Source of the DNA: Bacteroidetes bacterium endosymbiont of Geopemphigus sp.
Lineage (GTDB): Bacteria > Bacteroidota > Bacteroidia > Flavobacteriales > Blattabacteriaceae
DNA: 64,000 nucleotides
Direction of reading: 5' to 3'
Assembly (NCBI RefSeq): GCF_002904345.1
Contig: NZ_PEIH01000005.1
Coordinates: forward strand, 736,449 to 800,448
Shown: positions 22,498 through 25,456 of the stretch, in pieces
Layout of the letters: each line of letters begins with the position of its first letter
Position numbering within the stretch: the stretch's first letter is position 1
Made by a program: the position numbers and the translations under genes
The notes under the pieces: generated by a model
Database searches by the model: none
What the model saw: the letters and a program-made list of their open reading frames with translations, nothing else
What the model was told of the DNA's origin: nothing

Positions 22498-22659
22498 AAT
22501 ACTGTAATTAATGATTTTTAATCAAATATACAATCAATTATTATTAACATTAACAATATATTATCATAACTTTTATGATATATTATAGTATTTTACTAAC
22601 ATTTAAAAAACGTAACGAGAGATTATAAGCAGTGAATCGTTTCAAAAGTCATTTTAAGT

Positions 22660-23190
22660 AAGAGTGAGAGAGTAATTAGTCTTGAATAGCCAATTATTTA
22701 AATCTATCTGAAGTTCTTCGATGCTTCGATAAACTTTTTTTCTAAATTTGTATAGTTCTATGAAAACGCTCACATATACCGTTGGCTTGTGGAGATTTGG
22801 CTTTGGTCTTGCTGTGATCTATATCTTCTATGGCCAGATAGAGTTGATATTCGTGTTCTTTTCTTGAACCGCAATATTCCGTTCCTCTATCGGTGAGCAC
22901 TCTTTAAGAGATTAAGCTCATGTTGTTCAAAGAAACATATCTCAAGATCATTAAGAAAGATCTTTTGCTTATAAGGATGGAGAGGTTCCTGAAGTTAGAA
23001 TCAATTTTAGTTTGAAAAGCCTTAGTACCTCCGCGTTATAGTCTCCACAAAGTCTTTCCTTGCTGGACAAATGATTAAGGAAGCTACCAGTGGTATATGA
23101 TGTATATACCCCCAGACTGGATATTTTTCCATATAAATGGAAAAATACTGAGCAAATTTTCTCTTGTTGAACTTTCTCTCCATGCGCCAT
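22660..23190 (-). mobile_element. IS481-like transposase remnant
   Basis: On the minus strand, frames between about 22905 and 22660 assemble an integrase catalytic core: VLTDRGTEYCG, EEHEYQLYLAIEDIDHSKTK, AKSPQANGICERFHRTIQ and KKVYRSIEELQIDLNNWL, characteristic of IS481-type transposases (second Asp and the Glu of DDE visible). Upstream (to 23190) shorter lysine-rich fragments may be the N-terminal part, but are too damaged to align by eye. Many frame changes and stops; terminal inverted repeats could not be located. Confidence 0.65.
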
Positions 23191-23690
23191 GAGTTTTAAT
23201 ATCGGCCGCCGATAAGAAAATATTATCTTTTGAACTTATCGAACCATTTCTCATCAAGAATCATCGCTAAAATGCCTTTAATGAAGAATATAAATCTTTG
23301 TGGTTCTTCTCTCGAAAAGCTGTATTATAAGATAAAAGCGCTTTTCCTGAAATAATCAGATCCTTTCATGAAGAAGTATTGTCTTTTTCAATAGCAAGGA
23401 GATTGGGCTGATCATAAGGGGAATGCCCTATGATAAGTAAGAGAGAACCTGCTCTCCTGTATAAAATTTATTGTCAAATGAAGGAAAGGTCATAAGGTTT
23501 TTCCTTCATAATACCGCCAGAACGCACAGAACCATAAGCTTCAACGGTGATCTCTGCGACTTATTTCCTGCAAGCCCTTCAATAAAGATCTCCCGGGATA
23601 TTTTTGCGTAATGCCAAAAGGCCTGTGAGGGTAGGTAGCTCCGGGAAACAGGAACTTGTTTTTTTCTCTTTATTCTTTATCTAAGTTATT
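23191..23690. other. Decayed sequence between the IS481-like remnant and ribE
   Basis: Short coding-like fragments occur on the minus strand (for example VEAYGSVRSGGIMKEKPYDL near 23510 and HSPYDQPNLLAIEKDNTSS near 23400) but no family could be named. No intact gene. Confidence 0.4.
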
Positions 23691-24317
23691 TTAATAGGTG
23701 AAAGAATGTTTCATTAATTTTGGCTTACCAAAGTCGTACTTTCCCAGACGTGCAACATATTTCCCGATGATATCGAATTCAATATTAATACGTTTACCTA
23801 CTTTTAGGAATTGTAAATTTGTATGCATATAGGTATAAGGAATGACACTTACGCTAAAGCGACTTTCCTGGGAATTCACTACCGTAAGACTGATACCGTT
23901 CACCGTTATAGATCCTTTTTCAACTGTAATATTCAATAAACTTTTTTCATGAGAGAAATAAAAAATCCAACTACCATTACGATCTTCGACTGAATCAACA
24001 TAGCCTGTTGTGTCAACATGCCCTTGCACGATATGACCATCTAAGCGATCACTCACACGCAGACAACGCTCAAGATTGATTTTATCCCCTATCTGCAATT
24101 CACATAATTGACTTCGACGAAGTGTTTCTTCTGTAGCAATAACTGAGTAATATTGCTCATCAGATTCCACCACTGTCAAACAAAGCCCATTGTGACTAAT
24201 GCTCTGATCTGGCTTTAAAGCTTTATCAAAAGGATTTTCTATTAGTAGTTCTAGATTACTTCCTGAAGTTTTTAAACGACTCAATCTGGCCATTTTCTCT
24301 ATAATCCCTGTATACAT
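23691..24317 (-). CDS. ribE: Riboflavin synthase (alpha subunit)
   Basis: Dismutates two 6,7-dimethyl-8-ribityllumazine molecules into riboflavin. 208 residues with the two repeated lumazine-binding barrels: MYTGIIEKMARL at the start with SISHNGLCLTVV in the first, and GHIVQGHVDTTGYV with GSITVNGISLTVV in the second; the C-terminal tail helix KLMKHSFTY differs from longer homologues but length is normal. The family usually has VNGVCLTV where SHNGLCLTV is seen here. Start ATG 24317. It diverges from pdxA with a shared symmetrical promoter region. Together with ribF it shows that flavin supply is kept. Confidence 0.95.
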   Translation of the reverse strand: MYTGIIEKMARLSRLKTSGSNLELLIENPFDKALKPDQSISHNGLCLTVVESDEQYYSVIATEETLRRSQLCELQIGDKINLERCLRVSDRLDGHIVQGHVDTTGYVDSVEDRNGSWIFYFSHEKSLLNITVEKGSITVNGISLTVVNSQESRFSVSVIPYTYMHTNLQFLKVGKRINIEFDIIGKYVARLGKYDFGKPKLMKHSFTY

Positions 24318-24336
24318 ACTTCGTAATGTTTTTTGG

Positions 24337-24353
24337 TACCTTTGTCAAAGGTA
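24337..24353. promoter_or_regulatory. Symmetrical divergent -7 pair for ribE and pdxA
   Basis: TACCTTTG-T-CAAAGGTA: a perfect 17-base inverted repeat in which each arm is a TAnnTTTG element, plus strand (24337-24344) facing pdxA and minus strand (24353-24346) facing ribE. An in-frame ATG for pdxA at 24326 lies upstream of the plus element, so the ATG at 24377 is preferred. The palindrome could alternatively be a repressor site. Confidence 0.55.
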
Positions 24354-24376
24354 GATATCATTTGAGCAGAGAGATC

Positions 24377-25456
24377 ATGGTTCGGGGAAAAAAGATAAGA
24401 GTAGGTATTTCCGTAGGTGATCCTAATGGAATAGGACCTGAAATTACTTTAAAGCTTCTTCAAAAGAAACGCCTACTTAATTTTTTTACACCAGTGGCCT
24501 TTAGTTCCATGAAACTTTTATCATATTACAAGAATTTATTATCTATAGATGTAGAGCTACGCGGCGTTCATTCTTTGGAAAAAGTTGCGTCTCACAAATT
24601 AAACGTTATAAATGTTCAGCACGATGACTTTACCATTAAACCTGGTGAAGCTTGTGCCGAAGCAGGACAGTATACAAGACTTTCTTTGGAATCCGCTACA
24701 CGAGCCCTGAGAGATAATCACGTAGATGTTCTTGTCACAGCGCCGCTGAACAAAGATCTTATTCATTCAAAAGATTTTCCTTTCGTGGGGCATACCGATT
24801 ATTTACAAAGTACCCTTTCTGGAGAAGCTCTTATGCTAATGATTCATCATGAGTTAAAAGTAGCTCTGCTTACGCATCATATTCCGTTAAAAGAAGTAAG
24901 TAAACAGATAAATATTTCCAGAATCATCCAAAAAATCAAAACGCTCCAGCACTCACTTCATCGAGACTTTGGCATAGCCAAACCTAAAATCGCTGTCTTA
25001 GGGCTCAATCCTCATGCCAGCGATAATGGCTTACTCGGCGATGAAGAAGAGCAAAAAATCTCACCAGCTATTGAAAAGTTGTTTGGCGAAGGTATCCTGG
25101 TTTTCGGCCCTTATCCGGCAGATAGTTTCTTTGGAAGTGGTAAATACAAAAACTTTGATGCTATTCTGGCCATGTATCATGACCAGGGTTTGATTCCTTT
25201 TAAAACATTGACCTTCGGCGAGGGCGTCAATTTTACAGCAGGTCTTTCGTATGTACGTACCTCACCAGATCATGGCGTTGCCTATGATATAGCCGGAAAA
25301 GGTATTGCAAATGCAAATTCTCTTGAGGAAGCCATATTCAGTGCTGTTAAAATATTTGAAAACCGAAAAGCATATGATGAACTAGAGTCACGGGCACTTT
25401 CACTCTCTTCTAAAAGATCGCACTTAAAAAATAATAAGGAAGAAACTAGAAGATAG
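24377..25456 (+). CDS. pdxA: 4-hydroxythreonine-4-phosphate dehydrogenase
   Basis: NAD-dependent, metal-requiring enzyme of the DXP-dependent pyridoxal phosphate route; produces 3-amino-1-hydroxyacetone phosphate for PdxJ. With ATG at 24377 the protein is 359 residues; the start is chosen because RVGISVGDPNGIGPEI follows directly, as in the family. Metal-binding histidines lie in PFVGHTDYLQ, LLTHHIPLKEV and AMYHDQGLIPFK, and GLNPHASDNG and RTSPDHGVAYDIAGKG are intact. pdxJ is not in the window. The stop codon is 12 bases from that of convergent atpC, inside a shared hairpin. Confidence 0.95.
   Translation: MVRGKKIRVGISVGDPNGIGPEITLKLLQKKRLLNFFTPVAFSSMKLLSYYKNLLSIDVELRGVHSLEKVASHKLNVINVQHDDFTIKPGEACAEAGQYTRLSLESATRALRDNHVDVLVTAPLNKDLIHSKDFPFVGHTDYLQSTLSGEALMLMIHHELKVALLTHHIPLKEVSKQINISRIIQKIKTLQHSLHRDFGIAKPKIAVLGLNPHASDNGLLGDEEEQKISPAIEKLFGEGILVFGPYPADSFFGSGKYKNFDAILAMYHDQGLIPFKTLTFGEGVNFTAGLSYVRTSPDHGVAYDIAGKGIANANSLEEAIFSAVKIFENRKAYDELESRALSLSSKRSHLKNNKEETRR

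Follow-up and report, generated by a model that had tools for sequence, protein, structure and literature searches.

The window, by which we mean the whole 64,000-nucleotide stretch of endosymbiont DNA analysed here, contains the divergent genes ribE and pdxA, which are separated by a spacer of 59 bases (Table 1). Both assignments are secured by family model searches, in which the pdxA product scored 360.9 bits against TIGR00557 (cut-off 290.35) and the ribE product 189.1 bits against TIGR00187 (cut-off 156.6). Between the two genes, positions 24337-24353 read TACCTTTGTCAAAGGTA, that is TACCTTTG-T-CAAAGGTA, and the palindrome described in the sequence-only reading is indeed present there, with two perfect 8-bp arms about one central base. 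The symmetry stops at the ends of the arms, where the flanking positions 24336 and 24354 are both G, and the 17-mer occurs only once in the 1,317,719-base assembly.

Table 1. Genes and predicted promoter features of the ribE/pdxA region (positions are those of the window)
Feature	Position	Strand	Remarks
ribE, riboflavin synthase	23691-24317	minus	Matches TIGR00187 and NF006767
pdxA, 4-hydroxythreonine-4-phosphate dehydrogenase	24377-25456	plus	Matches TIGR00557; start at 24377 preferred over 24326 from starts in relatives
TACCTTTG, predicted pdxA −7 box	24337-24344	plus	Predicted transcription start 24349, from sequence and published box position
TACCTTTG on the minus strand, predicted ribE −7 box	24346-24353	minus	Predicted transcription start 24341, from sequence
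Region that both transcription bubbles are predicted to cover, about 11 bp	24340-24350	both	Inferred from box geometry

In the window, palindromes as long as this one are not unusual. We counted 22 perfect inverted repeats (8-bp arms, gap 0-3, some overlapping), compared with a mean of 7.75 and a range of 3-15 in 20 dinucleotide shuffles of the window, and symmetry alone is therefore not the finding. Each arm is also a TAnnTTTG motif, and the two motifs face one another; in 20,000 dinucleotide shuffles of the 59-base spacer such a face-to-face pair appeared once when any gap of 0-20 bp was allowed and never with a gap of 1 bp. Given two boxes, the same dinucleotide should stand at both nn positions in about one case in 8 (the squared nn frequencies, taken from 35 TAnnTTTG boxes upstream of genes in this genome, sum to 0.118), so little is gained from exact symmetry: the signal lies in the face-to-face pair, and the perfection of the palindrome is largely coincidence.

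Published work on Flavobacterium places TAnnTTTG, the −7 box recognised by the primary sigma factor of Bacteroidota, at positions −12 to −5 (PMC9723704; PMC6847099). Both boxes in the spacer match this sigma-A (sigma-ABfr) consensus as well as its TAHHTTTG refinement, having no G at nn, and they stand head to head within 17 bases just as had been claimed for them, each box complete and the two separated by 1 bp. With the published Flavobacterium box-to-start distance applied, RNA polymerase in one orientation would start pdxA at about 24349 and polymerase in the opposite orientation would start ribE at about 24341, so that 8 bp separate the predicted starts and each falls within the opposite box. 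A transcription bubble extends from about −11 to +2. By this geometry the two bubbles would overlap by about 11 bp, in agreement with the overlap proposed earlier, and the two complexes would not exist simultaneously; steric exclusion between two polymerases is plausible.

Across 119 regions upstream of genes in this genome, as delimited by a simple codon-usage gene caller made for this analysis, TAnnTTTG occurs 35 times in the sense and 14 times in the antisense orientation. The leaders predicted from the 35 upstream boxes have a median length of 27 nt (interquartile range 14-57), and the leaders predicted at the element, 28 nt for pdxA and 24 nt for ribE, are typical for this genome. Neither TTG nor TTTG lies at −33 (17-23 bp upstream of the box) in either direction in the ribE/pdxA spacer of this genome. 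Among the distinct promoter sequences from two families of relatives, f3 and f6 (see below), a −33 TTG was found in the plus direction in 0/26 and 0/16, respectively (0/42 in total), and in the minus direction in 2/27 and 3/14 (5/41 in total). The element is also weak at ordinary boxes, where it was counted in 5/35, 18/96 and 19/77 and a GTT control in 3, 20 and 9, and it is reported that no −33 element could be identified in F. johnsoniae (PMC7366714).

Positions 24326 and 24377, which are two candidate pdxA starts and not the ends of the palindrome, can be told apart by the same geometry. ATG 24326 lies upstream of the predicted pdxA transcription start, whereas ATG 24377 lies 28 nt after it, a distance taken directly from the sequence of this genome and not from the scoring of relatives. 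For the comparison we began with 64 sequences, six of which (including that of this genome) had no anchoring motif and four more no exact box pair, leaving 54 that could be scored. In 53 of these an in-frame ATG is located 21-43 nt past the predicted transcription start, and in the remaining one (L068) the distance is 107 nt; an additional upstream in-frame ATG is found in only one of the 54 (L063). Because 24326 precedes the predicted transcription start and because of the ATG spacing in relatives, 24377 is the better start, as the sequence-only reading had concluded, and promoter geometry and relatives together settle the likely start codon of pdxA.

The PdxA protein of the window, used as query, matched 42 of 60 relatives, 207 of 216 genomes of the order and 89 of 90 genomes of the class, these sets being overlapping ones. 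Spacers were taken from 60 hand-picked stretches (the best PdxA matches of families f3, f6 and f4 among those listed) and from other PdxA loci, with a divergent ribE sought by tblastn within 400 bp. Left out of the counts were L001 (the same place as L002), L020 and L023 (the same genomes as L104 and L055) and the incomplete L033. We infer that f3 corresponds to Flavobacteriaceae, f6 to Weeksellaceae and f1, with its 0.6-Mb genomes, to Blattabacterium; the f6 spacers resemble that of a named Chryseobacterium (L032). At eight loci (L099, L103, L021, L022, L025, L028, L029 and L031) there was no divergent ribE within 400 bp.

Exact face-to-face boxes with a gap of 0-20 bp were found in 31 of the 33 f3 genomes and 26 of the 27 f6 genomes that have the divergent gene pair, and also in Chryseobacterium potabilaquae and in this genome. 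The numbers expected from shuffles were 0.08 of 33 for f3 and 0.06 of 28 for f6, the latter set including C. potabilaquae (27 observed). All 60 f3 and f6 spacers carry the plus box, 58 carry the minus box and 57 have the two face to face. The exact pair is absent from the single f4 genome (L104), the single f11 genome (L030) and L053, L069 and L091; judged by eye, a minus box altered at one base is present in L053, L069, L104 and L030, and one altered at two bases in L091. Since the relatives are phylogenetically non-independent and many f6 spacers are near-identical (26-27 distinct promoter sequences in f3 and 14-16 in f6), the diversity of gaps between the boxes is a better measure of conservation than these counts. 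The gap takes 12 values (1, 4, 5, 6, 7, 12, 13, 14, 15, 17, 18 and 19 bp), and 12 values with the boxes unchanged imply that the length between them has changed repeatedly, which fits two promoters and not one fixed operator.

Identical boxes occur in one of 59 face-to-face pairs, namely that of this genome. Conservation of the palindrome in related genomes had been proposed as a check, with its absence from close relatives that keep the gene pair counting against the reading, and here the outcome is divided: the exact palindrome is absent from the sampled relatives, the paired boxes are present in most f3 and f6 genomes, and in f1 the pair too is missing. Related Flavobacteriales have retained the pair of predicted promoters and not the palindrome. 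Gaps below 9 bp would give separate starts, and the f6 gaps of 12-19 bp would by their geometry give transcripts with 5' ends complementary by about 4 to 11 bases. The boxes remain paired in five of six spacers longer than 130 bp and in all four spacers of 111-124 bp, so lack of room is not the sole reason for the persistence of the pair; persistence by inertia is possible.

The 29 f1 (Blattabacterium-like) genomes with divergent ribE and pdxA (L003-L019 and L034-L045) retain the gene arrangement without an exact face-to-face TAnnTTTG pair in any of them, and one has the plus box. Perhaps the exact boxes were lost as promoter recognition relaxed in these AT-rich endosymbionts. The best degenerate face-to-face pairs in the Blattabacterium-like spacers carry 1-3 mismatches; because AT-rich spacers yield such pairs easily, we make no claim that they are remnants. 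Outside the order, ribE was found within 400 bp upstream of pdxA in none of 20 stretches, these being drawn from the 89 PdxA-matching genomes of the class (a set in which the order is represented by this genome and two more).

The rarity of the arrangement elsewhere was assessed in 1.064 Mb of sequence, comprising 264 kb from this genome plus 400 kb apiece from an f3 and an f6 genome, with genes called by the same caller as above. Of 89 divergent regions (−60 to 300 bp), 31 contain both boxes; 29 of these have the back-to-back order and three have a face-to-face pair, namely ribE/pdxA, nth/bcp and L132, the last with both orders. With ribE/pdxA excluded, the face-to-face order is thus seen in two of the other 30 regions that carry both boxes. 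The 1.064 Mb as a whole hold 12 face-to-face pairs, compared with 11 in a reversed control, and when this is set beside their presence in nearly all f3 and f6 genomes at ribE/pdxA, the arrangement is at chance level generally and nearly fixed at that locus. An opposed pair of another form lies at 462-475 of the window, where TATGTTTG at 468 on the plus strand and TATATTTG ending at 469 on the minus strand are tail-to-tail boxes that share bases, in the back-to-back order.

We traced nth/bcp in 22 genomes, leaving out five weaker second bcp-like matches (L198-L202), and found the boxes face to face in nine of ten f6 genomes and one of ten f3 genomes. The gap in f6 (L176-L185) is 2 bp in seven genomes and 5 bp in two; L185, one of these nine, has its nearest nth at a distance of 769 bp. 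In the f4 genome there is no nearby divergent nth, and at this locus the present genome (L192) has no face-to-face pair. Because nth/bcp was picked after being seen in an f6 genome, it indicates that ribE/pdxA is not alone and does not indicate how frequent such cases are.

Bidirectional promoters have been described in E. coli and other prokaryotes, with opposed starts a few bases apart at which two polymerases cannot bind together (PMC12825309; PMC10268837). They are often found where two genes diverge (24% of the E. coli ones), and the E. coli starts are most often 18 bp apart, with 10 and 23 bp also common (PMC12825309). The predicted ribE and pdxA starts would likewise be opposed and a few bases apart between divergent genes, at polymerase sites that by their positions would overlap. 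However, the E. coli starts are mapped ones some 10-23 bp apart, whereas those of ribE and pdxA are predicted from sequence and lie 8 bp apart. Moreover, the E. coli promoters share a near-symmetric −10 element, while ribE/pdxA has two complete asymmetric 8-bp boxes: TAnnTTTG is not self-complementary, and the boxes stand side by side with 1 bp between them. In E. coli, a single near-symmetric element can yield transcription in the opposite direction as a by-product; since the Bacteroidota −7 box is asymmetric, an opposed pair kept for so long is not a by-product of a single box. In its consensus boxes and typical leaders ribE/pdxA resembles the Bacteroidota sigma-A (sigma-ABfr) promoters of published work (PMC6847099; PMC9723704; PMC7366714), and it differs in having boxes opposed within 17 bp and no TTG at −33, although in F. 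johnsoniae, too, that element is reported not to have been identified (PMC7366714). The nth/bcp region of f6 has similar face-to-face boxes, but between other genes, less widely conserved and absent from this genome. Among the papers searched, none combined riboflavin synthase, pdxA and a divergent promoter, and among the matches listed for bidirectional promoters in Bacteroidetes none was on this subject by title.

Taken as promoter elements, the paired boxes form a well-supported prediction, and the best reading is that ribE/pdxA has a conserved bidirectional housekeeping promoter of a known kind that departs from the E. coli form in its two complete asymmetric boxes. We assign a probability of about 0.75 to the 17-bp element being a bidirectional core promoter in which two complete, non-shared −7 boxes of the sigma-A (sigma-ABfr) type stand face to face, most likely serving the two housekeeping genes as a compact promoter in constitutive use. 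This is favoured because the pair is conserved, the gaps vary with the boxes kept, the arrangement is rare elsewhere, the boxes are sense-oriented and the leaders typical; it is weakened because there is no −33 TTG and no exact pair in f1, f4, f11, L053, L069 or L091. Were the element instead an operator, at which a dimeric regulator would bind TACCTTTGTCAAAGGTA and control one or both genes while the likeness to promoter boxes was secondary, its perfect 8+8 symmetry about one base would be explained, this being the shape of many operators, and the excess of inverted repeats over shuffles in the window points the same way, though it is not specific to the site. Matching half-sites at a fixed, conserved spacing are not what the relatives have, however: the half-sites are separated by 12 different gaps (1-19 bp) and match each other exactly in one of 59 pairs, unlike a fixed dyad. 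Each half also fits the −7 consensus and lies as far from its gene as is usual for a leader in this genome, and the sequence is single-copy in the genome. We dropped the operator, which appears very improbable, on account of the variable gaps in relatives and the single genomic copy. It is decidedly unlikely, too, that only one of the boxes works as a promoter, the match facing it being either decorative or a cryptic start of little strength. L104 (f4), L030 (f11), L053 and L069 have an exact plus box without an exact minus box, as such a view would have it; but all four differ from the minus box by the single base noted above, the face-to-face boxes recur in 57 of 60 f3 and f6 genomes, and ribE needs a promoter for which most of these short spacers hold no alternative minus box.

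The sequence-only reading had gone further, suggesting that mutual exclusion would couple riboflavin and pyridoxal phosphate synthesis. Occupancy by one polymerase would then repress the other gene and balance the two syntheses, and the face-to-face pair within Flavobacteriales would be a selected reciprocal device working without a regulator protein, one of a small Bacteroidota set together with nth/bcp, in which the asymmetric −7 box gives no free bidirectionality. Such regulation by exclusion might exist, and there is evidence on both sides, but on balance we consider the selected device unlikely. The geometry of the promoters overlaps, the arrangement is conserved at many gaps with the promoters overlapping at every one, and it is rare elsewhere. 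PdxH, an FMN enzyme, is present in all four genomes examined, and through it FMN and pyridoxal phosphate could conceivably be linked. From E. coli it is reported that strong activation in one direction can repress the opposite direction, but also that at basal activity weakening one direction barely affects the other, with little competition in five of five bidirectional promoters whose starts are 10-23 bp apart (PMC12825309). Exclusion would moreover couple the genes inversely, with no obvious benefit; the Blattabacterium-like genomes retain the gene pair without the boxes; and nth/bcp is arranged alike with no evident pathway link. For the bidirectional promoter that we prefer, interference between the two directions would be of consequence only where one of them was highly active or became activated. 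The ribE/pdxA and nth/bcp regions provide clean natural test cases for the regulatory use of polymerase exclusion.

Riboswitch control was also considered and rejected, there being no FMN riboswitch in any of the four genomes searched and no other RNA family near ribE/pdxA; of all RNA families, only a tRNA exceeded the threshold within the window. Among relatives, five of the six long spacers that were scanned carry a Flavo-1 RNA (RF01705, 71-82 bits) between the ribE start and the boxes. The carriers (L083, L084, L088, L091 and L102) are f6 relatives of genus g51, and L068 (f3) has none. In all five the RNA is on the ribE strand and would sit in the ribE leader.

On the stop side of ribE, some 1.2 kb of the window (22498-23690) has no ORF of at least 80 aa. 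With the simple codon-usage caller, the coding fraction is 66% in 264 kb of this genome compared with 88% in an f3 relative, and the ORF-poor stretch and low coding fraction together suggest decaying genes.
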